64,000 nucleotides of DNA from Bordetella parapertussis (GTDB taxonomy: Bacteria > Pseudomonadota > Gammaproteobacteria > Burkholderiales > Thiobacillaceae): positions 62,001 to 126,000 of the forward strand of contig CAMDCO010000001.1 in NCBI GenBank assembly GCA_945890495.1, written 5' to 3'. Position 1 is the stretch's first letter, and the number at the start of each line of letters is the position of its first letter. This document shows positions 9,456-35,380 of this stretch, in pieces. The notes beneath the pieces are model-generated. The model made no database searches and was not told the origin of the DNA. It saw nothing but the letters and a program-made list of their open reading frames with translations. A program made the position numbers and the translations under genes.

Positions 9456-10421
9456 CTAGGGCGCACCATCCCCGAGACTCTTGAACAAGTGGACTGCCAC
9501 GCGCTGCGGATCGAGGTCGATACTACTCGACAAATTGACCAAGGCCGGAGCACCCACCTCAGCCACCGCCCCAAATCGGGCCGGATCGGTCGCCGGATAC
9601 AACCCCACTCCGGGCCGACCCAACGCCGCCGCCAGATGCATCAGTCCCGTATCGACGCCGACCACAGCGCCTGTCCCAGCAATCAAAGGAATCAGGTCCG
9701 CCAACGGCATCGCCGGCAAGGCCCGCGATCCGGGACAGGCCACCACGATTCGCCCCGCCCGTGCCGCCTCCCGCGCATTACCGGCTGGAAACACCGGCGT
9801 CAGCCCGGCCGCGACCAGTTGCTGCGCCAGCGCCACCCAGTCGCCTTCCGGATACTCCTTTTCCACCCGCGCCGTACCGTGAAAACACAGCACCTCCGTG
9901 GCCCTCTCTGCACGGGCGCTCAGCGACACCCCATAACGCACCGGCGCATCGGCCTCCAACGCATAACCCAAAGCCTGCGCGGTCAACGCCCGGTTGCGCA
10001 AAATGGCATGCAGTTCACGCTGCGCAGGGTAACGATACTGATAAAAACGGCTGGCCAACGGCTCCCGTGCGCTGGCCGCATCCAATCCGGCCCGTGGCCC
10101 ATGCGCCTGAAACGCCAGCAACGCACTTTTCAGTAAACATTGGCTATCGAGCACCCGATCGTAGGTCTCAGCACGCAACGCTCGCCGAAACGCCGCCATC
10201 TCCCGCCAAGTCGACGCCTGCCCCAAGGCACGGCGCCAGCGCCGAATCGCCACCGGGATCACCCGATCCACCGCCGGATGTAAGCGAGGAATGGCCGCAA
10301 AGCCCTCCTCCACCACCCAGTCCGCGCGCAAGCCCGGAATGGCCGCCACCGCATCGGTCAGCGCCGGTAGCATATGGACGACATCGCCCAAGGAAGAGGT
10401 TTTGATGATCAGCAGCTTCAT
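9456..10421 (-). CDS. waaC: Lipopolysaccharide heptosyltransferase I (GT9)
   Basis: MKLLIIKTSSLGDVVHMLPALTDA, GVDTGLMHLAAALG; start trimmed to 10421. Confidence 0.9.
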   Translation of the reverse strand: MKLLIIKTSSLGDVVHMLPALTDAVAAIPGLRADWVVEEGFAAIPRLHPAVDRVIPVAIRRWRRALGQASTWREMAAFRRALRAETYDRVLDSQCLLKSALLAFQAHGPRAGLDAASAREPLASRFYQYRYPAQRELHAILRNRALTAQALGYALEADAPVRYGVSLSARAERATEVLCFHGTARVEKEYPEGDWVALAQQLVAAGLTPVFPAGNAREAARAGRIVVACPGSRALPAMPLADLIPLIAGTGAVVGVDTGLMHLAAALGRPGVGLYPATDPARFGAVAEVGAPALVNLSSSIDLDPQRVAVHLFKSLGDGAP

Positions 10422-10466
10422 GACGACGATTATCGGCCAGATCACAGCGGTGATACACTTTAATCC

Positions 10467-10718
10467 ATGCCAAACACCCTATTGGACATCACCCCCGCCA
10501 CGCATCCGCTGGATGATGCCATCGTTGCCGCCTTGCGGAAAAATCTGCCCGGACTGCAGGCGGTATATCGCTATGGCAGCGCCGGAGGCCCTTATGAGCG
10601 GGCCGACAGCGACATCGACATTGCCTTCCTTGCCGATCAACCCTTGCGCCTTGATCAACAAACTCAGCTCACCACTCAACTGACCCGCATCACCGAGCGC
10701 GGAAGCATTTATGGATGA
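10467..10718 (+). CDS. MNT-type nucleotidyltransferase (MntA-like), copy A, internally deleted
   Basis: GSAGGPYERADSDIDIAF (GSX10DXD); 83 aa against 148 aa in copy B (12534-12980), with an internal gap before ERGSIYG. Confidence 0.75.
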   Translation: MPNTLLDITPATHPLDDAIVAALRKNLPGLQAVYRYGSAGGPYERADSDIDIAFLADQPLRLDQQTQLTTQLTRITERGSIYG

Positions 10719-10893
10719 AGTCCTGCTCGGCAAGGCCGCCATGGTCGGCTTTCGCAATGTGGCCGTGCACAACGACCAGGAGCTCGACCTAGATGCCGTG
10801 CGCAGCATTCTTGAAACCCAATTGGACGACCTGAAAGCCTTCGCAGCACAAGCCTTCGCAGCACAGCTCATCAAAGTGGACACAAACGGCTAA
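10711..10893 (+). CDS. HepT-like HEPN protein, copy A, shortened; HXY tyrosine replaced
   Basis: MDEVLLGKAAMVGFRNVAVHNDQELDLD: R-X4-H present but HND instead of HXY; 60 aa; start overlaps mntA-like stop. Confidence 0.65.
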   Translation: MDEVLLGKAAMVGFRNVAVHNDQELDLDAVRSILETQLDDLKAFAAQAFAAQLIKVDTNG

Positions 10894-10904
10894 ACTCCCA
10901 CCCC

Positions 10905-11207
10905 ATGCGCCTAACCACCGAACAAGCCCGACTGATTTGTCAAACCGTACACCAACACATCGGTGGGAAGTCCCGCACATGGCTATTTGGCTCACGCACA
11001 GACGACCAGCGTCGTGGCGGTGACATCGACCTGCTCATCGAAAGCGATATTGCGCTGCCCATCCTGCAACAGGCCCGCATCAAAATCGCACTGGAACAAA
11101 GCCTGTCCATCCCCATTGACCTTGTCTGCCTGCGCCGTGGCCAAGCACCCACGGCATTCCAGCGTATTGCCTTGAGCACCGCCATCCCGTTGGAAGCCCC
11201 GCAGTGA
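10905..11207 (+). CDS. MNT-type nucleotidyltransferase
   Basis: FGSRTDDQRRGGDIDLLIE (GSX9DXD). Confidence 0.85.
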   Translation: MRLTTEQARLICQTVHQHIGGKSRTWLFGSRTDDQRRGGDIDLLIESDIALPILQQARIKIALEQSLSIPIDLVCLRRGQAPTAFQRIALSTAIPLEAPQ

Positions 11208-11734
11208 CCGACTTTGCCGAACCCGCAAAACAACATCTAGCGGACCTGCTGGATGCCATTCATCGCTGTGTCTATTTTCTGGAAGCGGCTGACATCAGCG
11301 TCATGTGGCCCCTTGAGGCTAACCACCTCGCTGCACATAAAAAAGACACCGCCTTGTTTGGAAGCCTAGCAGCCCTCAACGAACGCTTCGCAAAACTACA
11401 AGACACCTTGGGTGCTGCCATGCGCCATGCCATGCCCCTGCTCGGAGAAGACTCCGACACCTTCATCCGCGTGCTCGCCTACTATGAAAAAGTCAGCGTC
11501 ATCGATTCCACCAGCGAATGGCAAACCGGCCGAACGGCCCGTAATCTGGCTGCGCACGCCTATGAACTGGATTACGCCATGATTGCCGACCACTTCAACA
11601 CACTACACAGCCTTCGTCCCTATCTATACCGCGCAGCAAGCCGTTTTCAAGAGCATTGCAAAAGCCACCTTGAATTGACCCCAACCAGCGGCGACTTCTC
11701 AGCGGAATTCGACACAATCACAAAAGCCTCCTAA
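11204..11734 (+). CDS. HEPN-domain partner of MNT nucleotidyltransferase
   Basis: RNLAAHAY matches RX4HXY; GTG start overlaps the preceding TGA. Confidence 0.75.
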   Translation: MTDFAEPAKQHLADLLDAIHRCVYFLEAADISVMWPLEANHLAAHKKDTALFGSLAALNERFAKLQDTLGAAMRHAMPLLGEDSDTFIRVLAYYEKVSVIDSTSEWQTGRTARNLAAHAYELDYAMIADHFNTLHSLRPYLYRAASRFQEHCKSHLELTPTSGDFSAEFDTITKAS

Positions 11735-11761
11735 CATGGCGCACGCCCAATAGCCCAACCC

Positions 11762-12061
11762 ATGCGACTCTCCACGACCCAACGCAACGCAATCCTTGAC
11801 GCCATTCATGGCGAAGCCGGCCTCGCCGTGCGCGTCTTGCTTTTTGGCTCCCGCTTGGATGACAGCCTGCGCGGCGGCGATGTCGATCTCATGGTCGAAT
11901 TCTCACAACCTGTAGAACACCCGGCGCTGATGTCTGCCCGCCTGGCCACCCGCGCATTGCGCGCATTAGGCGGACGCAAAGTGGATGTCGTCATCTCCGC
12001 ACCGAATCTACTCCGCACCAGCATTCACGAAATCGCCTACGCGGAAGGAGAACCGCTGTGA
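11762..12061 (+). CDS. MNT-type nucleotidyltransferase
   Basis: FGSRLDDSLRGGDVDLMVE (GSX9DXD). Confidence 0.85.
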   Translation: MRLSTTQRNAILDAIHGEAGLAVRVLLFGSRLDDSLRGGDVDLMVEFSQPVEHPALMSARLATRALRALGGRKVDVVISAPNLLRTSIHEIAYAEGEPL

Positions 12062-12537
12062 ACGCCACCCGGAACACCGATGTCCGGCTCGCCGCACTCG
12101 CACGCATCGTGGAGCGCGAGGCCAAACACCTAGCCACCACAGACACGCGCCTTTTCCAGCCTCTCCTGTCCACGGACGATATCGCCGCATTGGAAACCAA
12201 CGAGGATCTCGCCGAGCGAGTTGAGGCCTTCATCGGGCGATTTGGGCGCCTTCAAGACACCTTGGGCGACAAACTGCTGCCGGCGTTACTCGCCCGCTTG
12301 GGCGACCGACCAGCCGGCCTGCTCGACAACCTCGATCGCGCCGAACGCCTTGGATGGATCGAAGACGCGAACCAATGGATCAACATCCGCGACCTGCGCA
12401 ATAAAATGGTTCACGAATACATGGAAGACCCCACCCTTCTGGCCGATGCCCTCAACAGCGGCCATCACTTCGCCGCTGACCTGATCGGTACTGCGGGCCG
12501 GATGACCGCCGAAGTCAAGGCACGCATCGCGTCATGA
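12058..12537 (+). CDS. HEPN-domain partner of MNT nucleotidyltransferase
   Basis: RNKMVHEY matches RX4HXY; shares RFxxLQDTLG with the 11204-11734 protein; overlaps upstream MNT gene by 4 nt. Confidence 0.75.
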   Translation: MNATRNTDVRLAALARIVEREAKHLATTDTRLFQPLLSTDDIAALETNEDLAERVEAFIGRFGRLQDTLGDKLLPALLARLGDRPAGLLDNLDRAERLGWIEDANQWINIRDLRNKMVHEYMEDPTLLADALNSGHHFAADLIGTAGRMTAEVKARIAS

Positions 12538-12980
12538 ATACGAAGCAACCAAACGCCGCATTAAACATCACCCCCGCCACGCATCCGCTGGATGCCGCCA
12601 TTGTCGCCGCCCTACGCGAAGACCTGCCCGGCTTGCAATCGGTGTATCGCTACGGTAGCGCCGGCGGCCCCTATGAACGGCCCGACAGCGACATTGACAT
12701 TGCCTTCCTTACTGATCAGCCCTTGGCCCTTAAAAAAGGGCTGGAACTTGCCGGCCAGCTGATGCAGGTCACTCGGCACGATGTTGATCTGAACGATCTG
12801 CGCACGCTTCCGCTGGGACTTCGGGTTCAAATTGCCCTCACCGGCATACGCCTCTACGCCGCGAATCCAGCCGCCGCTGAGGAATACGACTCACGCACCC
12901 TGTCAGACTATGTGCGTCTGAACGAAGAACGCGGCGCAATCCTGACCGACATCGCCCAGCGCGGAAGCATTTATGGATGA
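12534..12980 (+). CDS. mntA: MNT-type nucleotidyltransferase (MntA-like), copy B, longer form
   Basis: GSAGGPYERPDSDIDIAF (GSX10DXD), 148 aa. Confidence 0.8.
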   Translation: MNTKQPNAALNITPATHPLDAAIVAALREDLPGLQSVYRYGSAGGPYERPDSDIDIAFLTDQPLALKKGLELAGQLMQVTRHDVDLNDLRTLPLGLRVQIALTGIRLYAANPAAAEEYDSRTLSDYVRLNEERGAILTDIAQRGSIYG

Positions 12981-13152
12981 AGCCCTGCTCGGCAAGGCCG
13001 CCAACCTTGCCACCATGGTTGGCTTTCGCAATGTTGCCGTGCACAACTATCGAGAACTCGACCTAGATGTCGTGCGCAGCATTCTGGAAACCCGCCTAGA
13101 TGACCTGAAAGCCTTTGCAACACAGCTCATCAAAGTGGGCACAAACGGCTAA
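12973..13152 (+). CDS. HepT-like HEPN protein, copy B, shortened (59 aa; below ORF-track cut-off)
   Basis: Manual translation MDEALLGKAANLATMVGFRNVAVHNYRELDLDVVRSILETRLDDLKAFATQLIKVGTNG*; RX4HXY (RNVAVHNY) intact. Confidence 0.65.
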   Translation: MDEALLGKAANLATMVGFRNVAVHNYRELDLDVVRSILETRLDDLKAFATQLIKVGTNG

Positions 13153-13163
13153 ACTCTCGCCCC

Positions 13164-13292
13164 ATGCGCCTAAGCCCACACGAACTACATACCCGCCGCG
13201 CCACACCGCACGCCGACGATCCAACCGGCCGCATCCGACTATTTGGCTCACGCGCGATCAAGACCCCTGACAGAAAAGAGACCAAACGATGA
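13164..13292 (+). pseudogene. Relic of a further MNT nucleotidyltransferase
   Basis: Manual translation MRLSPHELHTRRATPHADDPTGRIRLFGSRAIKTPDRKETKR*; start context matches the MNT gene at 10905 and LFGSR is kept, but the DXD region is lost. Confidence 0.6.
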
Positions 13293-14380
13293 ACATCGTC
13301 CACACTGAGGCCTCGTGCGGCTGGGGCGGACAAGAAATCCGCATCTTGGAAGAATCGCGCGGGTTCATCGAACGCGGCCACAATGTCTGCGTTCTGTGCC
13401 CCGCCGAATCGCGCATTTATGAGGAAGGCCCTAAGCGCGGCGTGCCAACTATCGCCCTACCCATCGGCCGCAAAAACCTAAAAGGCCTATTCGCCCTGCG
13501 CCGCTGGCTAAAGCAAAACCCCGTGGATGTCATCAACACCCACAGCTCCACCGACTCGTGGCTCGCCGCGCTGGCCTGCCAAACCCTCAAAAATGCCCCG
13601 CCCATCGTGCGCACCCGGCACATCTCCTCACCCATCCCCAACAACTGGGCCAGCCGCTGGTTGTACGCCAAAGCCGTCAGCCATGTCATCACCACCGGCG
13701 AGGCCCTGCGCCAACAAGTGATCGAACAAACTGGCGCCGATCCCGCACGGGTAACTTCAGTGCCCACCGGTATCGACCCCGAACGCTTCAAACCCGGCGA
13801 CAAGCGCGATGCGCGCATCAAGCTCGGCCTAGATCCGGATGCAAATTACATCGGCATCGTCGCCACGCTACGAAGCTGGAAGGGACATTTGTATTTGTTG
13901 GAAGCGTTCGCGCAGTTGAATGCGCTAGGATGGAAGTTACTGATTGTGGGAAATGGTCCCTATCGCAGCGTTCTAGAACAGAAATCAGCAGAACTCGGGT
14001 TAAGCGAAAAAGCCCTATTCGCTGGTCAGCAACAAAACCCAGAGGACTGGCTACGGGCGATGGACATCTTCTGCTTGCCTTCATATGCGAACGAAGGAGT
14101 GCCGCAAGCCCTATTACAAGCCATGTTGACCGGCCTGCCCATCGTTACGACGCCCGTGGGCGCGATCCTCGATGCCGTCGGCGACCAAGATACAGCATTG
14201 ATCGTACCACCCCAGAATTCCAAGATTCTGGCCTCAGCACTTCACTGCCTGATCGACGACACCAAACTCGGAACACAATTCGGCATCCAAGCCCGTTCCA
14301 AAGCTATGGCGCACCATACAAAAGCAGCCATGCTAGACGCCATGGAAATGCATTTCGAACGCGTATTGCACACATCGTAA
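13289..14380 (+). CDS. Glycosyltransferase family 4
   Basis: MNIVHTEASCGWGGQEIRILEE..., DIFCLPSYANEGVPQALLQAM. Confidence 0.9.
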   Translation: MNIVHTEASCGWGGQEIRILEESRGFIERGHNVCVLCPAESRIYEEGPKRGVPTIALPIGRKNLKGLFALRRWLKQNPVDVINTHSSTDSWLAALACQTLKNAPPIVRTRHISSPIPNNWASRWLYAKAVSHVITTGEALRQQVIEQTGADPARVTSVPTGIDPERFKPGDKRDARIKLGLDPDANYIGIVATLRSWKGHLYLLEAFAQLNALGWKLLIVGNGPYRSVLEQKSAELGLSEKALFAGQQQNPEDWLRAMDIFCLPSYANEGVPQALLQAMLTGLPIVTTPVGAILDAVGDQDTALIVPPQNSKILASALHCLIDDTKLGTQFGIQARSKAMAHHTKAAMLDAMEMHFERVLHTS

Positions 14381-14385
14381 CCGGC

Positions 14386-15426
14386 ATGCCCAAAATCCTC
14401 GTAACTTTCCCGGAAATCTTGGAGACACCGCAGTCCGTCCTGTTCATCGCCGTATCTCGTATTGGCGACACCCTATTCGCCACGCCTGCCATGCGCGCTG
14501 TGGCCGAAACTTGGCCCCACGCGAGGATTACTGCGCTGGCCCATCCCAACCGAGCCGAAGTGTTGTTTAACAATCCCTTTCTTGACAAAACCGGGAGCAT
14601 TGAAAAGCGCCGCGCAATATTGATGGGCCGTCTTGGTGGCAAGCGTTACGATCTAGCCGTGGTCTACGGCCACGACAAACCCCTGCTCCGCTACGCCCTG
14701 AGAATAGCAAAACGTGTGGTCGCTTTCCGACAAGACGACCCTGCCATCAATAGCCGACTGTACAGAGCGGTGACAGAAGCGCCACCTCACCACGAACATG
14801 CGGTCGTAGCTGCACTACGCCTGACCAATGCTCTGGGCATCCAACCCAGCAACCGACGCATCGCCTATACAGTAACCGAGCAGGAGCGTGCGGCCGCCCA
14901 AGCATTTCTGCACGCATCCGGCCTCGGTGCAGCAAAACCACTGATCGGATTGCAATCGGCTAGTTTTCCGACCAAAGCATTTCGGAACTGGCCGCTGGCG
15001 TCATTCGCAAAACTGGCCCAGCAAGTTCAATCAGCATGGCCAGAAGCCGGATTCGCACTGCTCGGCGGTCCGGGCGACAAGGAAAACACTACCCACCTAA
15101 AAAACATACTTGGCAATCGGGCAGTCGATCTTGCCGGTCAGCCTATACGCCTCAACAGCGCGATCATGTCACAACTTGACGCCTATGTCGGCGTTGATAC
15201 CGGACCTACTCATATAATGAGTAGCTTCGACATTCCCCTCGTAGGCCTGTATCACTGCCTATTCCCACATGCCATCTACGGCCCACTCGATCACCCTTTC
15301 GACTTCTCACTCGACCACCCAAGCCTGGGTCAAGCCGACTGCGGCAAGGATACCTCCATGAAGGAAATCAGCGTCGAGACTGTGTTTAATAGAATCAAGA
15401 AAGCCATCGCGGCTCGTACCGCATGA
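14386..15426 (+). CDS. Heptosyltransferase-type glycosyltransferase (GT9)
   Basis: SVLFIAVSRIGDTLFATPAMRAVAETWP, VGVDTGPTHIMSSFDIP; start at MPKILVTF, not the 622-aa ORF start. Confidence 0.85.
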   Translation: MPKILVTFPEILETPQSVLFIAVSRIGDTLFATPAMRAVAETWPHARITALAHPNRAEVLFNNPFLDKTGSIEKRRAILMGRLGGKRYDLAVVYGHDKPLLRYALRIAKRVVAFRQDDPAINSRLYRAVTEAPPHHEHAVVAALRLTNALGIQPSNRRIAYTVTEQERAAAQAFLHASGLGAAKPLIGLQSASFPTKAFRNWPLASFAKLAQQVQSAWPEAGFALLGGPGDKENTTHLKNILGNRAVDLAGQPIRLNSAIMSQLDAYVGVDTGPTHIMSSFDIPLVGLYHCLFPHAIYGPLDHPFDFSLDHPSLGQADCGKDTSMKEISVETVFNRIKKAIAARTA

Positions 15427-16376
15427 CCACCCGTGGAGCACTTCTCACCACCCACTCAGACGGCAATCCGCTTGTCGTGGCGTTGCGTGAGATCGGTCAG
15501 GAAGTCATCCAATGCGACTATCGCAATGCAGTAACACACCTACCTGACTGCATCGGCTACTACGGCAATCTGTTCAGTGAAATAAAAAGCCCCCTTGCCT
15601 TCATGTCGATGCGGCTGGCTTTGACCAAGAAAAACATCCCCTATGTTTTCTGGAACCGAGACGCTCCATGGCATGTCGGCATCAAGCCGATATACAGGTA
15701 TCTCCTCCATGCGATGAAACCGGTTGATATCTACCTTGCCCACTCCATGCAGAACTCCGTATGGTTCACCCGGGGAACACCGTATTACTTTCCCAATGCA
15801 GCCAGACGAAACTACTGCCAGGCGACACTTTCGCCAGCCTTTTCTGACCCAGAGGAATGGCAGTACGACGTCTCATTCTTCGGCGCGATTGGTAATGAAA
15901 GACGTGCCAACTGCCTGCACCGAAAAACATTCCTAGATGCCGTTCGTACCCGCCTCGAACAGATCGGCGTCACGGCTCGATGGCGTATCGTCGACACCGT
16001 CCACGAGCCGCTAACCTTGGAACAACAGATCGAACTGATCCGATCGACCAGAATCAACCTCAATTTTGGCGCCATGTGTGACCTGCCGGGCAATCCATCA
16101 TGGGGCATGCCAGAAAGGGTTTTCGGGATTCCGGCCGCAGGTGGCTTCCTACTGACTGATTGGCGCAAATCCATCCCGGAAACATTTCCAAACGACAGTT
16201 GCGACCACTTCGAAACTCCAAATGAATGCGCAGACAAGATTGCCTATTACCTAAACAAACCCGATGAATTACGAACTCGTGCCAAACAATTGCAGGAGGA
16301 CATACTCACGCACCACACCTACGCCGCTCGCGCACGGCAACTAGTTGATCTACTCACCGAGTTCCGGAGGTTATGA
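15423..16376 (+). CDS. CgeB-like glycosyltransferase
   Basis: INLNFGAMCDLPGNPSWGMPERVFGIPAAGGFLLTDW; paralogous to next gene. Confidence 0.75.
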   Translation: MTTRGALLTTHSDGNPLVVALREIGQEVIQCDYRNAVTHLPDCIGYYGNLFSEIKSPLAFMSMRLALTKKNIPYVFWNRDAPWHVGIKPIYRYLLHAMKPVDIYLAHSMQNSVWFTRGTPYYFPNAARRNYCQATLSPAFSDPEEWQYDVSFFGAIGNERRANCLHRKTFLDAVRTRLEQIGVTARWRIVDTVHEPLTLEQQIELIRSTRINLNFGAMCDLPGNPSWGMPERVFGIPAAGGFLLTDWRKSIPETFPNDSCDHFETPNECADKIAYYLNKPDELRTRAKQLQEDILTHHTYAARARQLVDLLTEFRRL

Positions 16377-16425
16377 CTTACACATCAAATAACCCGATGC
16401 GTATTCAATACTCGGAAATCCACAT

Positions 16426-17412
16426 ATGACCCAAGATACCCTACTTGTTTCTCACGCTAGCCTTCATCCGGCTCTACGCCGCGAACTTACCGCGCGTGGC
16501 CTAGTTCTTCGCGAAAGTCAGCGCTGGCAAGACACCAACCGCTCCCAACCAGAACGCGTCCTCGGCGCCTACACCTGGTTCTATGAGGGACTACGGCATC
16601 CTCTACAGGTCTGGCGCATGCACCACTGGCTACAACAGCATGGCATTCCGCTGTTCGCCTGGAATCAAGATGCTCCACACTATCTTAATTACACAAAACC
16701 ATCTCGTAGCTGGCGGCTATACATTGCACAAATGTTGCGCTTATTCGATATCTATGCGACACACACCTTAATTGATAAAAATCGAAGATTCGCCGAGACA
16801 ACACTTTACTTACCAAACGCTGCAGATACTGCACACTATCACCTGCACGGGCGAACCTTATCCGAATTACGCAATCAGGCCGCATACGAATGGGATGTCA
16901 GCTTCTTCGGAGCAATGGATGGAACGCGGTACAAAGAGATGCGGCCCCGACAAGCGTTTTTCCATGCTCTGTCAAAGCGTCTTACGGCGCTTGGAATCCG
17001 TCATCTCTTTCGTGAAGCAAAAGGTCTGAGCACAGAAGCGCAAGTGCAACTCATCCAGACCTCTCATATCAACCTCAACTTCGGTGCCTCTTGTGAATAC
17101 GGATCTCCCGTCGCATCCGGCCTTCCAGAGCGCTGCTACGGCATTCCCGCCTGTGGCGGATTTCTGCTTTCGGATCGGCGTACCCATGCGCAGGACGATT
17201 TTACACCGGGCGAAAACTGGGCTGAATTTGACAGCCTAGATGACTGCGTGGATAAAATTCAGTATTGGCTGTCTCACTTTGATAAGGCCCGCGACCTAGC
17301 AGAGCGTTGCCATGCGCATGTGCTCAATCACCACACCTATGCTCACCGAGCGGAAAAACTGCTCAATGCCATAGCGGCATGGCATGAGGGCCGACGAGGT
17401 TTAATAAAATGA
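16426..17412 (+). CDS. CgeB-like glycosyltransferase, paralog of previous gene
   Basis: INLNFGASCEYGSPVASGLPERCYGIPACGGFLLSDRR. Confidence 0.75.
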   Translation: MTQDTLLVSHASLHPALRRELTARGLVLRESQRWQDTNRSQPERVLGAYTWFYEGLRHPLQVWRMHHWLQQHGIPLFAWNQDAPHYLNYTKPSRSWRLYIAQMLRLFDIYATHTLIDKNRRFAETTLYLPNAADTAHYHLHGRTLSELRNQAAYEWDVSFFGAMDGTRYKEMRPRQAFFHALSKRLTALGIRHLFREAKGLSTEAQVQLIQTSHINLNFGASCEYGSPVASGLPERCYGIPACGGFLLSDRRTHAQDDFTPGENWAEFDSLDDCVDKIQYWLSHFDKARDLAERCHAHVLNHHTYAHRAEKLLNAIAAWHEGRRGLIK

Positions 17413-18380
17413 ATTCGCCGAGTGTTTCAGTTGTCCTACCCATCTACAATGTTGCAACGTACCTGCCAAAGTGCCTAGACAGGCTTGCTGAACAAACATT
17501 ACCAGTCGATGAAATCATCGCTGTAGATGATGGGTCAACCGATGAATCTGCATCCATTCTCGCCGCATATGCAACACGATTGCCTAATCTTCGGATTATC
17601 CGTCAGGAGAACGGGAGACACTCCGTAGCTCGCAACACCGGCATGAAACAGGCAACCGGGAAATGGCTTTTGTTTGTGGATGCGGATGATTTTATTGAAC
17701 CCGATACACTACTCCAACTCGTAAGCGCAGCAGAAAAGGACAGCCTGGATGTTACCGTATGCAATGCGCGCTACCACTATGAAGACAAAAAGCCGGACAG
17801 CCCGATCTACATCGGGCCTCAAGTAACCACAGTAACCTCCGGCAAGGAGTGGCTACGCAACCGTCTTCGCGAAAAATTCTTGCCCCACATGGTCTGGATG
17901 CACCTCTATCGAAGGGAATTTTTAACAGCCCATGATTTTCGTTTCATACCGGGACAGGTTCATGAGGATGTTATATGGACGAACCAAGTGATGTTGGCTG
18001 CACACCGTGTTCGCTATATTGATGCAGTACTTTACAATTACCGCATACGACAAGCTCGCTCTGGCGCAGATTTGGTTCGGAGATCCCGCGAATATGTCAT
18101 CCCGTGTAGCGTGATAAACACCGAGGCCATCAGCAAAATGGCGGATGACTTACGCGATGACCCAGATCTAGAAAAGCTGATGCGATGGCAGGCTTTTCAT
18201 AGCGGAAACGCCATCTTCCACCTAATTGGCAAACTTCCGGCAAAACAAGACAGGGCCATTCAAATGCAACGACTCAAGAAAGAAGGCTTCTTTTCCTTAA
18301 TGCGCCACAACGCAACATCCTTCTCCCAGTACAGAAAACTGTTAAAGATTATCCTCAAAGAAGCGATTGGAATCGCTTGA
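17409..18380 (+). CDS. Glycosyltransferase family 2
   Basis: SVSVVLPIYNVATYLPKCLDRLAEQTLPVDEIIAVDDGSTD. Confidence 0.93.
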   Translation: MNSPSVSVVLPIYNVATYLPKCLDRLAEQTLPVDEIIAVDDGSTDESASILAAYATRLPNLRIIRQENGRHSVARNTGMKQATGKWLLFVDADDFIEPDTLLQLVSAAEKDSLDVTVCNARYHYEDKKPDSPIYIGPQVTTVTSGKEWLRNRLREKFLPHMVWMHLYRREFLTAHDFRFIPGQVHEDVIWTNQVMLAAHRVRYIDAVLYNYRIRQARSGADLVRRSREYVIPCSVINTEAISKMADDLRDDPDLEKLMRWQAFHSGNAIFHLIGKLPAKQDRAIQMQRLKKEGFFSLMRHNATSFSQYRKLLKIILKEAIGIA

Positions 18381-18383
18381 ATC

Positions 18384-19667
18384 ATGCTTGCATATCTAAA
18401 AAATAACAGGGGAATAATTTGGCTAGCCCCATTAATTGCACTACATGGCATCCCGGGAACAGGGTTTATTCGTTCAATATTATTATTAATAGGTTTCATC
18501 CACCTATTCTGGACGATTAAGAATAATGAACCCATATTTTCGCTCCTGCACAAACGCCCCGAAACATGGTTGCTTGGCGCGCTTACCCTTTGGTTAGTTA
18601 TCCAATCATCAGTATTTTCAGTTTCACCTCTACATAGCCTTAAGGAACTCTCCGACCATTTCGGAAAAATCCTACTGCTAATATGGGTGGCCATTACACT
18701 TGTGCGGCGGCGGAGTGAAATAAACGCATCTTGGATGCTGCATGGTGTTTTTGCCGGATTTTTCATCCATGTGATCTCGACCCTATCGTTTCAGGGATGG
18801 CAATATTTCAACACCGGAAACCTTGCCATAGGAGATAGTTTTCTTGGTAATTACGGATATGTTTCGCCGTATGTGACCGGAAGCATGGCTTTTCTTATGG
18901 CAGACCTAGCGTCCAGATATCTCGGCTCAGGAAGGTTACTAAATGTCCCTACCTGGACGATTATTACTGGTTTGTTTTTGGCCATCGCCGCACAAAGCAT
19001 GCTTGCCGCAAAAGCCAGCCTGGTCATGATGATCATCATGTTTTTCATAGCTTCAGCGGCGGTGATGATTCGTAGCCGCAGCAGCCTCTCCCACCTGTTT
19101 GTTCTTGCAGCACTCGGTGTAACGATTGGTGCAGGAATCACATTTACCAACTTCTTTTCTAACCGATGGGATGGCGCCCTAGAAAATATAGATTTTGCAA
19201 TAAAACAGGAGCCTGATCTGAAATCGACTTTCCAAGGATCCTCCCACGGGGATGGTTCTTTTTCCCTTCGCTATGCCTGGGGAAAGGCAGGGCTTGATGG
19301 AATTTCCCATCGCCCACTAGGCTATGGGTACGGTAGTGAGGGTTACGGTAAATACATTTTCGATCATTACAATGTCACCGGCGCCGTGAGCAGCCACAGC
19401 GGCTGGATAGATTACACTTTGGACAATGGAATTCCCGGGTTAATGCTCTTACTAGCCCTGTCCGCTATCCTTGTTTACCGAGGATGGCGATCCTTTCTGC
19501 AAGGCAATCCATTGGGATTGGCCCTATGCCTGTTTGTGATCAATTACATTGGACGGTGCGCGATCGACGGACACCTCGTCGGATCCAGAATATCAGGGTT
19601 TGCATTTGCTGTTGCGATTCTATGGGCACTGAATATGACAACGAAAAATGCCAATCCATCAAATTAA
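18384..19667 (+). CDS. O-antigen ligase family protein
   Basis: Polytopic protein with SSHSGWIDYTLDNGIPGLMLLLALSAIL, typical of Wzy_C/O-antigen ligases. Confidence 0.8.
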   Translation: MLAYLKNNRGIIWLAPLIALHGIPGTGFIRSILLLIGFIHLFWTIKNNEPIFSLLHKRPETWLLGALTLWLVIQSSVFSVSPLHSLKELSDHFGKILLLIWVAITLVRRRSEINASWMLHGVFAGFFIHVISTLSFQGWQYFNTGNLAIGDSFLGNYGYVSPYVTGSMAFLMADLASRYLGSGRLLNVPTWTIITGLFLAIAAQSMLAAKASLVMMIIMFFIASAAVMIRSRSSLSHLFVLAALGVTIGAGITFTNFFSNRWDGALENIDFAIKQEPDLKSTFQGSSHGDGSFSLRYAWGKAGLDGISHRPLGYGYGSEGYGKYIFDHYNVTGAVSSHSGWIDYTLDNGIPGLMLLLALSAILVYRGWRSFLQGNPLGLALCLFVINYIGRCAIDGHLVGSRISGFAFAVAILWALNMTTKNANPSN

Positions 19668-20778
19668 TCTGCAACGCCACTTTGGTGGTGGTGAGGTATA
19701 TACCGCATTTCTATGTAGGGCTTTAGATAAATTAGGCGTTGCCACTCATCTTTATATCCACCCACAGGCAGCGTTTTGGACAGATCTCCAGCTCCCGGCA
19801 TCAACTCAATTACTGCCCACAAACTCATGGCAGAATCTAAACGCCGAAAGATGCCCTTATTCGTCATGGTTTTTGGGGCACGGCGCTCTGCCACAAGAAC
19901 TCTGCCAGAAAATTCACGCCGCTGGGGGAATCGCCACGGCTATTGCCCATATGCCCGTTCAAGGTCGAAATCCGGATGTGTTCAAAAACCATGACCAGGT
20001 TTTTGGTGTCTCCCGTTGGGTCGTCGATGGTCTGATAACTGCTGATCTTCCTGTCTGGCCGACACCGCTTTATGGCGTGGCTAATTTAAATCGTGACCAC
20101 CCGGTCTCACAAATTCTTCGTCGAAGCCGTTACGATTGGGACTTACGCAAGGGCCGTGATCGAGTCCTTTCCTGGATCGAACCCTTGATTGATCCACTAC
20201 TCCAACATCCAGCCTATGCGCGAAACACAGGATTAACACTTGGAATCGTCTCCAGAATCACTCCTATAAAACAATTTCCTCTTCTTTTTTCGATTCTCGC
20301 CCCTGTGCTGTCCCGCTTTCCTACCGTCAATATTGAAATCTTTGGTAGTGGCGGCTATGGTTCTGTGCGTGACCTGACAAAGGCTCTCGAGCCCATTGCA
20401 GACCGTACACGATTCTGGGGGCATCAATCTGATGTGGCATCTGTATACAAGGGAATTGACTTCCTGCTTACCGGCCTCCCTGAAAAGGAGGCTCTCGGCC
20501 TCAATATCATCGAAGCACAGGCCTGCGGCACACCAGTCATTGCGCCCAATGCACCACCCTTTACCGAGACTATATTGCACGACAAAACGGGGTATCTGTA
20601 CACCGATCCTCGCCTTGATGACGGTGCGGATTTTTCTCGATTACTGCAACATCTGCTTAATAGCACCGAGAAGATCCACCCAGAATACGCCACGGAGCAT
20701 ATTCAAACATTTTCATTCGATGTTTTTGTAGAACGGATGGCCCCCATTGTCGAATGGGCCAAGGGAAGGCTAGCGTGA
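19648..20778 (+). CDS. Glycosyltransferase family 4
   Basis: HFGGGEVYTAFLCRALDKLGV, GLNIIEAQACGTPVIAPNAPPFTE. Confidence 0.85.
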   Translation: MPIHQINLQRHFGGGEVYTAFLCRALDKLGVATHLYIHPQAAFWTDLQLPASTQLLPTNSWQNLNAERCPYSSWFLGHGALPQELCQKIHAAGGIATAIAHMPVQGRNPDVFKNHDQVFGVSRWVVDGLITADLPVWPTPLYGVANLNRDHPVSQILRRSRYDWDLRKGRDRVLSWIEPLIDPLLQHPAYARNTGLTLGIVSRITPIKQFPLLFSILAPVLSRFPTVNIEIFGSGGYGSVRDLTKALEPIADRTRFWGHQSDVASVYKGIDFLLTGLPEKEALGLNIIEAQACGTPVIAPNAPPFTETILHDKTGYLYTDPRLDDGADFSRLLQHLLNSTEKIHPEYATEHIQTFSFDVFVERMAPIVEWAKGRLA

Positions 20779-21785
20779 AAATTCTGATCATTCGTCGAGA
20801 CAATATTGGAGATCTTGTCTGCACTACTCCCCTTATTCGTTCACTACGCCGACAACTACCCGATGCCAAGATCGAAGTCTTGGCAACCCGCTATAACCGC
20901 GCCGTACTTGAAAACAACCCGGATATTGATGCATTGCATGCCTACACCAAGGCCAAGCATCGCATGCCAGACGAATCCTTGCTTTCAATCTACTGGCAGC
21001 GCATCACCACCATTTGGAAATTGCGCAGAGCACGCTTTGATGTTGCGCTCATCCCAGGAGATGTCAGTACCAGCGCCCTGCGTTTTGCGCATTGGATCGC
21101 GCCTCGGCGCATAGTCACCCAAATGATCTCCGCACAAAACGGGAACCATGAGGTTGAACGCTGTTGCCACCTGCTGGATCAATTGGGTTTGGCCTATGAA
21201 GCCCCCGCTCCCTTGGTCGTTGCAAAGCCAACCCTAACCACAGAACTCCGCTCAAAGCACTGCCTACCCGAAGACACACCGATCATCGGCTTTCACATTA
21301 GCGCCAGAAAACCCTCCCAACGCTGGCCCGCAGAGCACTTCGCAAATCTAATCCAGCGAATTCACAATATCGCCCCAGACACGGCTTTCATGCTGCTTTG
21401 GGCGCCTGGTAGCACTAACAACCCTCAACACCCCGGCGACGATGAAAAAGCCGAGGCTATTCTCTCGAAAGTAAAAAGTTTCCCGGTTTTCCCCGTGCCA
21501 ACCCATCAACTGGAAGAACTCATTGCAGCGCTCTCCCTGTGTAATACAGTGATTTGTGCGGATGGTGGTGCAATGCATCTTGCTGCCGGCCTTGGAAAGC
21601 CAATAGTTGCCCTCTTTGGTCAATCCGATACTGCCCGCTGGCATCCTTGGGGTGTTCCCCACGCGGTTTTGCAGACACCGTGCCAAGATGTCGCCGATAT
21701 CGACATCGACAAAGTTATCTATGCGCTGGCAGAAACGCAGCAGCTAAAACCAAACCGGACGCAGGGGTCAGTCGCCGCGACCTAA
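20775..21785 (+). CDS. Heptosyltransferase-type glycosyltransferase (GT9)
   Basis: VKILIIRRDNIGDLVCTTPLIRSLRRQLP, CADGGAMHLAAGLGKPIVALFG; probable GTG start overlapping upstream stop. Confidence 0.88.
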   Translation: MKILIIRRDNIGDLVCTTPLIRSLRRQLPDAKIEVLATRYNRAVLENNPDIDALHAYTKAKHRMPDESLLSIYWQRITTIWKLRRARFDVALIPGDVSTSALRFAHWIAPRRIVTQMISAQNGNHEVERCCHLLDQLGLAYEAPAPLVVAKPTLTTELRSKHCLPEDTPIIGFHISARKPSQRWPAEHFANLIQRIHNIAPDTAFMLLWAPGSTNNPQHPGDDEKAEAILSKVKSFPVFPVPTHQLEELIAALSLCNTVICADGGAMHLAAGLGKPIVALFGQSDTARWHPWGVPHAVLQTPCQDVADIDIDKVIYALAETQQLKPNRTQGSVAAT

Positions 21786-24811: not shown

Positions 24812-25213
24812 TCACCAAATGGCCAGGGAGTAATGCCCCAGAATATGACGATCTGCGGTCAGCAAGCGCGCTTGGCCATATGCCGCTTGCGCCACAATCA
24901 GGCGATCAAAGGGGTCTCGCGTCCAGGTTTGGCTTACCGCAGCCCCCACGACACCGGTAAATGGCAATGTACAGATTTGCAAGTCAACATCCCGACGCAT
25001 GACATCCAGAATGGTGGCGGCTGAACACTGGATACGGGAAATTTCATGCAGGTAAGTGAGTTCCAACTCAACAATAGGCGAAATCAGCAGCGGCGTAGCC
25101 GCCTCAATCAGGCGCGCACCTTGTTCGGTCAAGCGGGCTGCGCCTTCCTGATATAACCAAACCAACACATGTGTATCAAGATACAGCGGCGCGGTCACAG
25201 ATTGGGTTGCCAT
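24812..25213 (-). CDS. PIN-domain toxin (VapC-like)
   Basis: YLDTHVLVWLY, RDPFDRLIVAQA, LLTADRHIL. Confidence 0.85.
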   Translation of the reverse strand: MATQSVTAPLYLDTHVLVWLYQEGAARLTEQGARLIEAATPLLISPIVELELTYLHEISRIQCSAATILDVMRRDVDLQICTLPFTGVVGAAVSQTWTRDPFDRLIVAQAAYGQARLLTADRHILGHYSLAIW

Positions 25214-25654: not shown

Positions 25655-26323
25655 TCACTCCCGCCGCAACACCACATCGTTGATAAAGCTCGCCAGTCCG
25701 CCCGGCTTGAACTCGGCCGCAATCTTCTCGCGGTCGGCGATGTGCTCGGCCCAGTGGAGAAACTCGGCCTCGGGGTGTTCGCGTTGGTAGGCCAGAAACT
25801 GTTCCAGATAAAAATCAATCTTGCCGGCGTTGGAGTGCTTGATGTGTCCGAACGGCCAGAGCTGTAACTGGTTGGTCTGCCCAATCGGGATGTGCTGGCG
25901 GAAATATTGGTACAAGGTGGAATAAATCCCGGCCCGGTCCGCACCCGCCTTGCAGTGAATCCAGATCGGGTATTCGACCGAATCGAACACGGTCTTGGCG
26001 CGACGAATCCGCGAACCTTCGGGAATGCCGCGCGAATAGATGTCGATATCCACCAGCCGGATGCCCAGCCGGGCGCATTGTTCTTTTTCAAAGGCGTAAT
26101 AGGCCGAACCGAGGTTGGCACCCTTAAGGTTGATGATGGTCTTGATACCGCGCTTCTTCACCTCGCGGCGCAACTGCCACATGGTCGGCTGCGAGGAGCG
26201 GTAGGCCTCTTCCGAGATTTGATGAAAGTTAAAACGGATAACATTGGTGAAGTTGTGCTCCACCAGCATGGCGTACAGCCACGCCTTGATACGGCCCAAC
26301 GGGGTTTTGAGGTTAAATTTCAT
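25655..26323 (-). CDS. Dual-specificity/tyrosine phosphatase-like protein
   Basis: IHCKAGADRAG = HCX5R signature. Confidence 0.8.
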   Translation of the reverse strand: MKFNLKTPLGRIKAWLYAMLVEHNFTNVIRFNFHQISEEAYRSSQPTMWQLRREVKKRGIKTIINLKGANLGSAYYAFEKEQCARLGIRLVDIDIYSRGIPEGSRIRRAKTVFDSVEYPIWIHCKAGADRAGIYSTLYQYFRQHIPIGQTNQLQLWPFGHIKHSNAGKIDFYLEQFLAYQREHPEAEFLHWAEHIADREKIAAEFKPGGLASFINDVVLRRE

Positions 26324-27504
26324 GCATTGCTCCGTAATCTGGCCATCAAGCCCGACAGGGGAATCATCGTGGTATCCTTTTCGATCGGGAACTCATCCTG
26401 GCCACCGTACACCACAAACTTGCGCGTTGCACCGACATCCGCCGCAGCCAAATGAAACCCTGGGGATATCTTGGGCGCAAGTCCGTATTTCACCTCAATC
26501 GCCCACAACGCCGTACTGGACAGCCGCAATACAAGATCAATCTCGGCACCTGCCGCAGAGCGATAAAACCATGACTCGGCACCCATCGGTGCACAACTCA
26601 ACAGATTTTCGATAGCGAACCCTTCCCAGCTTTTGCCCAATACAGGGTTGCTGTTCAAGTCCTCCATATCCCGAATCCCCAACAGACGGTGCACGATGCC
26701 GCTGTCCCGAATGTAATAACGCGGCGACTTGACCAGACGCTTGCCCGCATTGACATGCCAAGGCTGCAAGCGCCGCACCAGCAACAATTCCACGAGAATA
26801 TCCAGATAATGGCTGACCGTTTTGCTGTCCACTTCCAGATTGCCACCCAGCTTTGAATAATTTAGAACCTCTCCTTGCAGGTGCGCCAACATGGACCATA
26901 GCCGCCGCAAGCGGCTGGCGGGAACCCGAAAACCAAATTGCGGTACATCCCGTTCAAGATAGGTACGCACCAGCATCTCCAGCCACTCCATAGCCGCCGC
27001 ATCGCTGGCCGCCAACAGGCTTTCCGGAAATCCGCCGCGCAACCAGAGCCTCATGAGTGACGGGGTATCGGAGGCGGCATACTCCAACGCATTGATGCCT
27101 GACAGCGACTGGAAGCAGATGCGCCCAGCCAGGCTCTCGGAGGATTGCCGCATCAAGTCCATGGATGCCGAACCGAGCAACAAAAACAGGCCTGTTTTTC
27201 TGCCCGATTGACGCTGATGATCAATAACCCCGCGCAACACCGGAAACAAATCCGGCAGGCGTTGCATCTCGTCAATCACCATCAGGCGATCCTGGTGATA
27301 TCTGAAAAAGGCCAGCGGGTCGCGGAGCTTCAGCAGATCCTCGGGCGATTCAAGGTCGAGATAAAGCGAGGAGCATGACGCGGCAATCGTGTGTGCCAGC
27401 GTGGTTTTCCCCACCTGACGCGGCCCAAGCAAGGCCACAGCGGGAAACCAGCCCAAGGATTGTCCTACATCGAAAATGGCTTGACGCGCTATCATGCCTT
27501 GCAT
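26320..27504 (-). CDS. AAA ATPase with DUF4143-type C-terminus
   Basis: LLGPRQVGKTTLAHTIAAS, MVIDEMQRLPDLFPVLRGVID, WEGFAIENLL. Confidence 0.9.
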   Translation of the reverse strand: MQGMIARQAIFDVGQSLGWFPAVALLGPRQVGKTTLAHTIAASCSSLYLDLESPEDLLKLRDPLAFFRYHQDRLMVIDEMQRLPDLFPVLRGVIDHQRQSGRKTGLFLLLGSASMDLMRQSSESLAGRICFQSLSGINALEYAASDTPSLMRLWLRGGFPESLLAASDAAAMEWLEMLVRTYLERDVPQFGFRVPASRLRRLWSMLAHLQGEVLNYSKLGGNLEVDSKTVSHYLDILVELLLVRRLQPWHVNAGKRLVKSPRYYIRDSGIVHRLLGIRDMEDLNSNPVLGKSWEGFAIENLLSCAPMGAESWFYRSAAGAEIDLVLRLSSTALWAIEVKYGLAPKISPGFHLAAADVGATRKFVVYGGQDEFPIEKDTTMIPLSGLMARLRSNA

Positions 27505-31866: not shown

Positions 31867-33291
31867 TCAGTTTCCTTCCTTAATTTTTGCAATCACAGCG
31901 CTGGTCGAATGTCCCGCCAGAAAATCGAGGATCTGCACCCGGCCGCCCGCCGCCTTGACACAGTCAGCCCCGGCGACCTGATCCTCGGTGTAGTCACCGC
32001 CCTTGACCAGAACATCCGGAAGCACCTTGCAATACAGGCGTTCGGGGGTGTCCTCACTAAACGGCACGACCCAATCGACACAGGCCAGCGCGGACAGCAT
32101 ACGCATCCGCGTGGTCAGGTTGTTAATCGGACGCGTGTCGCCCTTCAAGCGCCGCACCGAGGCGTCGTCGTTCACCGCCACCACCAACCGGTCGCCCAGG
32201 GCGCGGGCCTTTTCCAGATAGTCGATGTGACCGGGATGGAGGATGTCGAAACAGCCATTGGTCATCACGATGCGCTCACCGCTGGCACGCGCCGCGTGCA
32301 TCTGCGCCAGCAATTCATCCTCGCCACAGACGCCGCGACAGCACGACTCCGTACCACCACGCACCGCCCGCGCCAGTTCGGCCGGGCTGACCGTGGCCGT
32401 ACCCAGCTTGGCCACCACAATGCCGGCGGCGATGTTGGACAGCGCCACGGCCTCGTCCAGCGCCATACCCGCCGCAATCGCCGCGCCCAAGGTCGCCACC
32501 ACGGTATCGCCCGCGCCGGTGACATCAAACACCTCTTGCGCCCGCGTCGGCAGGTGCAAGGGCGCGTGGCCGCGTGCCAGCAGGGTCATGCCCTTTTCGC
32601 TGCGCGTCACCAGGATCGCGTCCATATCCAGCGCATCGCGCAAGGCGATACCACGCTGCTCAATCTCGGTCTCGGTCTCGCAATGGCCGACCACGGCCTC
32701 GAACTCAGACAGGTTGGGCGTCATCAGGGTCGCGCCGCGATAGCGTTCGAAGTCCGTGCCCTTGGGGTCCACGATCACCGGTTTTCCGGCGGCCCGCGCC
32801 GCCTTGACCAAATCGGCCGAGCGACGCAGCACACCCTTGGCATAATCGGACAGGATCACCGCATCGACATCCGCCAAGCGCGCCGCAAAATCGGCCTGCA
32901 GCGCCTCCGCATCCCAGTTGGGAAAGTGATCTTCAAAATCGAGCCGAATCAATTGCTGATGGCGCGACAGGATGCGCAGCTTGGTAATCGTCTTGCTGCC
33001 CGGCACGCGCTGCAACCGGCAGTCCACACCGCGCTCCCGTAACAACGCCTCGACCTGATCGGCAGTCGCGTCCTGCCCAGCCAAGCCCAGCAGTTTGATT
33101 TCCGCCCCCAGCACAGCAGCATTCAAGGCCACATTGCCCGCGCCACCCAGCCGCGCATCGATCTGATCGACCCGCACCACCGGCACCGGCGCCTCGGGCG
33201 AGATGCGCGAGGTAGACCCGTGCCAATAACTATCGAGCATCACATCGCCGACAATCAGCAGGCGGGCTTGAGTGAAATCGGGCAGGTTCAT
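31867..33291 (-). CDS. hldE: Bifunctional heptose-7-phosphate kinase / heptose-1-phosphate adenylyltransferase
   Basis: [58 protein letters not shown]. Confidence 0.96.
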
Positions 33292-33352
33292 GAAAAGTTA
33301 GGCACAATGCCCCTTGTCTTTAATGAGCGGATTCTAGCCGCAAGCCGAAACC

Positions 33353-33913
33353 ATGTCTCAAATTCTGAACATTCTTGAAGCCCATCGCCACGCGGTGGCG
33401 CAACTGACCCCACTGGCGGCCCTGATCGAGTCGCACGGCCAGTTTCTCATCGACACCCTGAAGGGCGGCCACAAGATCCTGCTCTGCGGGAACGGCGGTA
33501 GCGCCTCCGATGCGCAACACATCGCCACCGAACTAACCTGTCGTTTTGAGACTAACCGTCGCGGCTTGCCGGCCATTGCCCTGACCACCGACACCTCGGC
33601 CCTCACCGCCATTGGCAACGATTTTGGTTTCGAGCGCGTCTTCGCCCGTCAGGTGGAGGCCTTGGCGCAACCCGGCGATTGCCTGATCGGCATCACCACC
33701 AGCGGCAGCAGCCCCAATGTCGTTGCGGCCATCACCGCCGCCAAGGCGCTCGGGGTTTCGACACTGGGCTTGGTGGGACGCGATGGCGGGATGTTGCGCG
33801 ATCAATGCGACCGTGTGCTGATCGTCCCTGCACAGGACACCGCGCGGGTCCAAGAATGTCACATCCTCATCGGCCACATCTGGTGCGCGATGGTGGATGC
33901 CGCCTTCAGTTGA
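33353..33913 (+). CDS. gmhA: Phosphoheptose isomerase (SIS domain)
   Basis: ILLCGNGGSASDAQHIATELTCRFETNRRGLPAIALTTDTSALTAIGND. Confidence 0.9.
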   Translation: MSQILNILEAHRHAVAQLTPLAALIESHGQFLIDTLKGGHKILLCGNGGSASDAQHIATELTCRFETNRRGLPAIALTTDTSALTAIGNDFGFERVFARQVEALAQPGDCLIGITTSGSSPNVVAAITAAKALGVSTLGLVGRDGGMLRDQCDRVLIVPAQDTARVQECHILIGHIWCAMVDAAFS

Positions 33914-33937
33914 CCGTTCAGTTGACCCTTCAGCAGG

Positions 33938-35380
33938 TCAAAGCAAAAACACCGTCGCCAAGCCGAGGAAGATAAAAAATCCCATCGAATCGGTGATGAA
34001 GGTGAGCAGGACATGGGCCCCAAAGGCGGGGTCGTGGCCAAAGCGGACGATCAGGTTGGGCGCCCAATAACCCGCGATCGACGACACCATCAGGTTAAGT
34101 AGCATGGCGGTCGTCATGACCACCGCAAGCGGCAGGTTGTCATACAACAGGTAGGTGACAACCCCCATGATGCTGCCCCAGACGATGCCGTTGAGTAGCG
34201 CAATACCCATTTCCTTGAGCATGAGACGCTTGGCGTTGTCCTTGGAGATGATGTTGAGTGCCATGCCGCGCACCACCAAGGTCAGGGTCTGACTGCCGGC
34301 GTTGCCGCCCATGCCGGCGACAATGGGCATCAGCGCCGCCAACGCCGCGAGCTGGATAATCGATTCTTCAAAGGCCCCGATCACGCGCGAGGCAAACAGG
34401 GCCGTACACAGGTTGATGCCCAGCCATAGCCAACGGTTCTTGGCCGCCTTCCACACGGTGGAGAACAGGTCTTCCTCTTCACGCAGACCCGCCGCCTGTA
34501 GCATATCGGCCTCGGCCTCGGCACGGATGTGGTCCATCATCACATCGACGGTAAGACGGCCGACCAAGATGCCGCGTGGATCGACCACCGGGGCTGTCAC
34601 CAAGTCATAGCGTTCGAAGGCCTGGGCCGCATCGCTCGCCGGATCAGAGGGGTGAAAGAGCACCGGGTCATCGCTCATCACGGCCGCGACATGGACCTCC
34701 GGGTCGTGCACCAGCATGCGTTTCAGCGGCAAGGTGCCAATCAGTCGACCATTGCGTTCGACCACAAACAACTTGTCAGAGTGCGGCGGCAATTCACCGA
34801 GGAAGCGCAGATAGCGCAGGGCGACCTCAAGCGTGATATCGGCGCGGATGGTGACAAAGTCGTAATCCATCATCCCGCCGACCGAATGCTCGTCGTAAGA
34901 GAGCGAACTTTCCACCTGAGCGCGCTTGGCCGCGTCCAGGGATTTCATCAACTCCTGAACAACATCCTTCGGTAGATCGGGGGCCAGATCAGCGATCTCA
35001 TCGGTATCCAGGCCGGCAGCGGCGGCCACCAGTTCGCGGTTGTCCATCGCATCGATGAGCGATTCGCGCACCGCGTCAGAGACCTCAAGGAGGATGTCGC
35101 CGTCGCGATCGGCCTTGACCCGTTCCCAAACAAGGAGACGATCCTCCAGCGGCAAGGCCTCAAGGATGTAGGCCACATCGGCCGGGTGCAACTGATCGAG
35201 CTTCTTTTGCAACTCGGCCAGATTCTGCTTGTGCACCAAACCCTCGATCAAGTCGTGGCGCGGCATGGCCTGCTTGTGAACGAGCGATTCCACCAGCTTC
35301 TGCCGCGCGATGATGTCCGTCACCTGCCGCAGGCTGTCTTCGACATGATTCTTGCTGTGGTCTTCGTGGTTCTCGCTCAT
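33938..35380 (-). CDS. mgtE: Magnesium transporter
   Basis: N-domain and CBS repeats plus GMGGNAGSQTLTLVVRGMAL. Confidence 0.93.
   Translation of the reverse strand: MSENHEDHSKNHVEDSLRQVTDIIARQKLVESLVHKQAMPRHDLIEGLVHKQNLAELQKKLDQLHPADVAYILEALPLEDRLLVWERVKADRDGDILLEVSDAVRESLIDAMDNRELVAAAAGLDTDEIADLAPDLPKDVVQELMKSLDAAKRAQVESSLSYDEHSVGGMMDYDFVTIRADITLEVALRYLRFLGELPPHSDKLFVVERNGRLIGTLPLKRMLVHDPEVHVAAVMSDDPVLFHPSDPASDAAQAFERYDLVTAPVVDPRGILVGRLTVDVMMDHIRAEAEADMLQAAGLREEEDLFSTVWKAAKNRWLWLGINLCTALFASRVIGAFEESIIQLAALAALMPIVAGMGGNAGSQTLTLVVRGMALNIISKDNAKRLMLKEMGIALLNGIVWGSIMGVVTYLLYDNLPLAVVMTTAMLLNLMVSSIAGYWAPNLIVRFGHDPAFGAHVLLTFITDSMGFFIFLGLATVFLL

Follow-up and report, generated by a model that had tools for sequence, protein, structure and literature searches.

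Type VII toxin-antitoxin systems pair a HEPN protein with an MNT nucleotidyltransferase. In these systems, the HEPN protein is an RNase and the MNT protein puts AMP on the tyrosine of the HEPN HXY motif (PMC7641770, PMC11586414). The published Class I and Class II HEPN/MNT modules are defined with a GSX10DXD motif in the MNT (PMC7641770), and Class I is represented by MntA-HepT of Shewanella (SO_3165/SO_3166; PF01934/PF01909). Other relatives are the HI0073/HI0074-like pairs (TIGR01987, PF08780) and the HEPN-MNT system of Legionella (8xeh, 8xdj, 8xeo; PMC11586414), a single module with a short MNT of ~100 aa. Modules also occur side by side, as in the crenarchaeal MNT/HEPN clusters (PMC3710099) and in toxin-antitoxin islands, for which tandem duplication does not account (PMC2701414). 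Together with an insertion into a lysine operon (PMC2701414), these clusters and islands are the nearest precedents for the locus described here. Unlike them, it involves a single family in Beta/Gammaproteobacteria, and LPS or polysaccharide loci are absent from the main texts of those papers.

The locus lies in a stretch of 64,000 nucleotides, hereafter the window. Nine ORFs on the + strand, alternately MNT and HEPN, are found between waaC and a glycosyltransferase gene, and their coordinates were confirmed. We read them as a heterogeneous type VII-like MNT/HEPN array that has accreted on the LPS operon, probably as addiction modules (a probability of roughly 0.6). The features are listed below, with the evidence for each in brackets.

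9456..10445, - strand: waaC (heptosyltransferase I), left border, divergent from the array (named in the first-pass annotation)
10467..10718, + strand: M1, truncated MntA of 83 aa, GSX10DXD kept (MntA profile, alignment)
10711..10893, + strand: H1, internally deleted HepT of 60 aa, RX4HXD (HepT profile, alignment)
10905..11207, + strand: M2, complete GSX9DXD MNT of 100 aa (Pfam Polbeta above cut-off, family alignment)
11204..11734, + strand: H2, complete HEPN of an unnamed family, 176 aa, RNLAAHAY (family alignments)
11762..12061, + strand: M3, complete GSX9DXD MNT of 99 aa (AlphaFold2/Foldseek, Ka/Ks against the orthologue in congener G004)
12058..12537, + strand: H3, complete HEPN of 159 aa, RNKMVHEY (AlphaFold2/Foldseek)
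12534..12980, + strand: M4, full-length MntA of 148 aa, GSX10DXD (NCBIfam MntA above cut-off)
12973..13152, + strand: H4, HepT of 59 aa with ~80 codons deleted internally, RX4HXY intact (HepT profile, homologue alignment)
13164..13292, + strand: R9, vestige of a GSX9 MNT, MRL... LFGSR (alignment, HMM 16.6 bits)
13289..14380, + strand: glycosyltransferase family 4, first gene of the LPS operon, co-directional with the array (Pfam)
14386..21785, + strand: remaining LPS operon, namely GT9, GT1-like, GT2, O-antigen ligase domain, GT4 and GT9 (Pfam)

The ORFs overlap by 4-8 nt within pairs. Overlaps of 4 nt are also present at H3/M4 and between the relic and the glycosyltransferase gene, where the stop of R9 lies over the next start; R9 is the beginning of a GSX9-type MNT fused to the leader of that gene. 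Coordinates and motifs agree with the first-pass annotation, which had described eight alternating + strand ORFs, mostly overlapping within pairs, and a ninth relic. Its location of the array between waaC and LPS glycosyltransferases and its two interleaved module types (GSX10DXD in the outer M1 and M4, GSX9DXD in the inner M2 and M3) hold as well. What has to be given up is the picture of four working modules, because two toxins (H1, H4) and the antitoxin M1 are truncated. Only M2-H2 and M3-H3 are complete modules; beside them stand an antitoxin whose toxin is truncated, a pair with both members truncated and the vestige of an MNT.

Chance similarity can be dismissed, as profile E-values are as low as 4e-23. 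The array is single copy in the genome. On its waaC side, waaC is 80-83% identical to its congeners and the synteny waaC-aroQ-accB-accC is conserved; GC content falls across the array, being 61% on the side of waaC and 52% in the operon with the glycosyltransferase gene. A promoter scan, itself at chance level, found no promoter-like site upstream of M1. The modules are probably co-transcribed with the LPS genes, since no terminator-like site was found on the array's own strand (those found are on the opposite strand only and no more than expected by chance) and a 4-nt overlap leads into the glycosyltransferase operon. The same LPS region of the window encodes a PIN-domain protein (24812-25213, - strand; PF01850, 3.2e-10), a candidate VapC-like toxin. 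An AAA_14/DUF4143 ATPase (26320-27504, - strand) is located between the LPS genes and an msbA-like ABC transporter gene, and its homologues lie near MNT modules in three other loci (L065, L108, L111).

The outer pairs resemble Class I MntA-HepT in gene order, overlap, the GSX10DXD of the MNT and the RX4HXY of H4 (PMC7641770). They differ from it in that both HepTs and M1 are truncated, the pair is duplicated and it sits in an LPS locus. M4 scores 81 bits against the NCBIfam MntA model (NF047752, cut-off 60) and is 66% identical to a homologue in genome G056; M1, M2 and M3 miss the same cut-off (37, 28 and 18 bits). Only the N-terminal half of MntA is matched by M1 (profile positions 28-78), which retains ~75 N-terminal residues and a few C-terminal ones, with the middle and the region of the third Asp gone. 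Coverage of the HepT profile is limited to positions 85-120 in H1 and 81-120 in H4, and both pass PF01934 solely as C-terminal fragments. Compared with full-length homologues of ~141 aa, each has an in-frame deletion of ~80 codons after MDExLLGKAA, resuming at MVGFRNVAVH. The RX4HXY motif expected of most HEPN ORFs is present in H2, H3 and H4; H1 departs from it, with RX4HXD (RNVAVHND) and the tyrosine lost.

At the nucleotide level, the outer pairs are 79-83% identical (blastn). M1 and M4 share 73% of their amino acids over 75 codons (Ks 0.77, Ka/Ks 0.24), and for H1 and H4 Ks is 0.33 and Ka/Ks 0.19. By these sequence measures, the outer pairs arose by genuine duplication on the spot. Given that the start of the deletion is common to H1 and H4, the deletion probably preceded the duplication. 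If it did come first, the low Ka/Ks would mean that the short product was under constraint for a time. Alternatively, the shared deletion may reflect independent deletions, or conversion. M4, although left without an intact toxin partner, could still work as an antitoxin.

The inner pairs stand further from described systems. Their MNTs carry GSX9DXD, not the GSX10DXD of Class I, and their HEPNs satisfy neither the PF01934 nor the PF08780 cut-off. The HMM searches proposed at the outset gave a divided answer: M4 was recovered as MntA and M2 as Polbeta, but H2 as a single query matched nothing in Pfam or NCBIfam, H3 stayed under the Pfam cut-off at 16 bits, and H1 and H4 appeared as fragments. 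The nearest named relatives of the inner HEPN are HI0073/HI0074-like (H3 scores 27 bits against TIGR01987 and matches PDB 1jog at E 1.3e-5), and 1no5 is nearest to the inner MNT. All of these matches are below family cut-offs, however, and the inner pairs are set apart by GSX9DXD with GGDxD in the MNT and RFxRLQDxxG in the HEPN.

Predicted structures point in the same direction. AlphaFold2 models of H3 and M3 (mean pLDDT 95 and 90) match the folds that HEPN and MNT adopt in the type VII complex. For H3, the top 11 Foldseek matches are all HEPN proteins of HEPN-MNT systems, with TM-scores up to 0.78 by target, E about 0.01 and probability 1.00; its best PDB matches are the HEPN toxins of solved HEPN-MNT systems and HI0074. 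For M3, the top matches are Shewanella MntA (6m6w, 7bxo) and the Legionella MNT (8xeo). The Legionella HEPN-MNT structures are the best Foldseek matches of H3 and have a similarly short MNT, but sequence identity is only ~15%. Taking motifs, profiles and AlphaFold2/Foldseek together, we infer on good grounds that the inner pair type belongs with the type VII HEPN/MNT systems, and both the MNT/HEPN identity and the relation to MntA-HepT proposed in the first-pass annotation are borne out. M3 and its G004 orthologue give a Ka/Ks of 0.07; judged by this ratio, M3 is under purifying selection and strong constraint.

Relatives of H2/H3 occur in 37 of the 299 genomes sampled from the order. In GTDB genomes there are 186 candidate stretches, and the 80 listed are, by title, nearly all from Beta-/Gammaproteobacteria. 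Many neighbour loci derive from metagenome assemblies. Four residues are invariant in 35 HEPN sequences (R111, R114, H119 and Y121, H3 numbering), and nine are invariant in 26 MNTs (G29 S30 R31 D34 G38 G39 D40 D42 D75, M3 numbering). FGSR..D...GGDxD and the third Asp are invariant in the MNT family alignment. Every intact inner-type MNT examined in which the motif was found has GSX9DXD and none has GSX10DXD. Across the 35 HEPN members, there was no informative Pfam or NCBIfam assignment: at E<=0.01, HepT-like was touched by 16 and NTase_sub_bind by 13, and none matched PF05168 (Class II HEPN), with RX4HXY present instead. Because current motif and family cut-offs miss them, GSX9DXD modules are probably under-annotated. 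Carriage by plasmids or phages was considered and set aside, as H3 had no match in either collection.

Comparison of the waaC-glycosyltransferase junction in relatives was limited by the contigs of two congeners (G003 and G004), which end near waaC; the G004 match is an array remnant. In it, an M3 orthologue (89% amino acid identity) with a broken H3 immediately precedes the orthologue of the same glycosyltransferase gene. This related remnant at the same site, and the single copy inside a 172-kb contig, make misassembly unlikely. Another genome, of the same family as the window's (G028), has M3-H3-MntA-HepT, with a full-length HepT, between mgtE and hldE. In the window, hldE and mgtE are adjacent as in G028 (31867-35380), with no recognised module between them. 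Two genomes of genus g4 carry inner-type pairs between accB and accC, in the acetyl-CoA carboxylase operon near waaC (L059 7574-8346, L060 8599-9410). G050 has a tandem row of an MntA-HepT, an inner pair and a HI0073/HI0074 pair that separates rfbC from rfbD, close to waaC and waaA. A RelE/Phd-like pair adjoins this array (L068 2437-2966), so that this LPS locus collects more than one toxin-antitoxin type.

How did such arrays arise? Repeated duplication had been proposed at first pass, which fits the outer pairs (Ks 0.77 and 0.33) but not the inner ones. M2 and M3 are 37% identical and H2 and H3 only 28%; H2 and H3 fall in different clades of a 46-sequence tree and have closer relatives elsewhere. 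The nearest relative of H2 is an Aromatoleum evansii protein (L199, 57-60%), followed by a second pair in the same genome as H2, and that of H3 is a Gallionella protein (L158, 61%). Tree and identities rule out tandem duplication of the inner pairs. The second pair in the window's genome is another complete GSX9 MNT/HEPN pair (C7, L128 9336-10096), the closest relative of M2-H2 there.

Arrays of this kind recur across Beta/Gammaproteobacteria, and 24 of 80 named relatives have more than one module. Across 23 comparisons, identity between the first and second intact HEPNs of a locus never exceeded 43%, and most of the second ones were closer to a protein elsewhere (up to 85%). When modules were reassigned to loci at random, modules of the same array were no more alike than random draws (P(mean) 0.59). 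Arrays thus resemble random draws from the family rather than tandem copies. An apparent deficit of similar HEPNs within arrays disappeared under the proper null (anchor vs non-anchor genes), so our claim is limited to random-like assembly and does not extend to selection for difference. Near-identical MNT copies within one locus do exist (98% in L119, 94% in L178), and the HEPN partner of one L178 copy is broken, as in the window. The L119 stretch (G025:C60, 8202-12359) packs five MNTs and four HEPNs, including the two 98% identical MNTs, into ~4 kb, with no LPS marker found nearby. Clustering within 5 kb was seen for 19/63 inner HEPNs vs 8/150 ParE toxins among the matches listed, a comparison that includes a few split genes and is indicative only.

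Decay within the family is uneven. By inspection of loci, ~11 MNTs lack an intact HEPN vs ~2 cases of the reverse, although some apparent MNT orphans are not real (as in L114, where a PIN-toxin pair splits the locus). The 11:2 asymmetry fits the HEPN as toxin but is marginal after allowing for longer HEPN genes. In L114 (8641-10177), the PIN-toxin pair is nested between an inner MNT and the next HEPN.

The first-pass annotation had also suggested a hotspot, and here the family-wide data agree. In 37 genomes, we compared the positions of inner-type HEPNs with those of rfbA and waaA, two genes found mostly as single copies; the ParE toxins of the same genomes served as the control. Among the matches listed, 7/51 collapsed HEPN loci vs 3/145 ParE loci are no more than 10 kb from rfbA or waaA (p=0.0035); at up to 20 kb and uncollapsed, the figures are 12/63 vs 4/150 (p=1.3e-4). 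The control is if anything generous, since three of the four near ParE matches (G050, G205, G082) share contigs with MNT arrays. A window-based test of LPS markers agrees with the position test, but its ParE windows were hand-picked and places near rfbA/waaA omitted, and it is not our main evidence. One or more LPS markers occur at 25 of the 80 named loci, two or more at 15, and by our own count the module strand is that of the nearest LPS gene in 24/28 loci. Insertions into the rfb operon use different slots in different genomes (rfbA|rfbC in L065, L103 and L193; rfbD|rfbA in L198 and L206; rfbC|rfbD in L068), which argues for repeated entry. With about two thirds of the relatives away from the LPS markers used, this niche is a preference and no rule. 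Our searches of the openly accessible literature turned up no description of HEPN/MNT modules within LPS operons.

We propose that successive capture of distinct modules, together with one local duplication, built the array at the head of the LPS operon. H2 and H3 would be HEPN RNases, and M2 and M3, each first in its pair, would AMPylate the RX4HXY tyrosine and keep the RNase off. Transcribed with the LPS genes, the modules would free a toxin whenever the LPS operon was lost or replaced, and would in this way persist with the LPS cassette and stabilise it. Duplicate or obsolete modules would shed the toxin first (H4, H1, then M1). Gene content, motifs, predicted folds, decay, recurrence, enrichment in LPS operons and co-orientation are what the data show; RNase activity of H2/H3, AMPylation, co-transcription and addiction are what we infer for the array, and addiction tied to an often-exchanged operon seems to us the most economical role.

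The main rival is passive hitchhiking: often-exchanged LPS/O-antigen loci would collect any mobile small module, and the array, without an LPS-linked function, would be on its way out. The shift in GC across the array and the decay of several of its parts are what it would predict, and MNT/HEPN modules are known to enter unrelated operons, for example that for lysine biosynthesis (PMC2701414). We nevertheless consider it unlikely, because the enrichment near LPS genes is not matched by the ParE modules of these genomes, operon direction was kept in 24/28 counted cases and M3 is strongly constrained.

The modules might instead be abortive-infection units placed beside phage receptor genes, with different HEPNs for different triggers. 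LPS is a common phage receptor and HEPN RNases are common in defence. MNT members do match the PADLOC candidate families PDC-S09 and PDC-M05A, but weakly and to candidate models, their HEPN partners have no notable match, and the scanned neighbour genes are mostly LPS and housekeeping genes; we regard phage defence as improbable. Least plausible, and by a wide distance from addiction, is that these are domesticated regulators or modifiers of LPS synthesis, with MNTs nucleotidylating a sugar, lipid or protein of the pathway and HEPNs as substrate-binding subunits. This echoes the older view of HI0073/HI0074 as a nucleotidyltransferase with a substrate-binding partner (1no5, 1jog), and the Ka/Ks of 0.19 in truncated H1/H4 looks as if they had been retained. 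On the other hand, neither the RNase residues of the HEPNs nor the target tyrosine vary, many family members are away from LPS genes, and HEPN decay precedes MNT decay.

Beyond the addiction reading of this array, we offer a bolder and rather doubtful idea: GSX9DXD MNTs and RFxRLQD HEPNs might form a third HEPN/MNT class, specialised in surface-polysaccharide operons, transcribed from the host operon, and killing or arresting cells that lose, replace or silence it. If so, arrays of non-cross-neutralising modules would lock in LPS cassettes, an operon-level form of addiction. The preference for LPS and dTDP-rhamnose operons, with several slots and unrelated modules, offers a concrete case for separating experimentally between addiction, the guarding of an exchanged locus and receptor-side defence.
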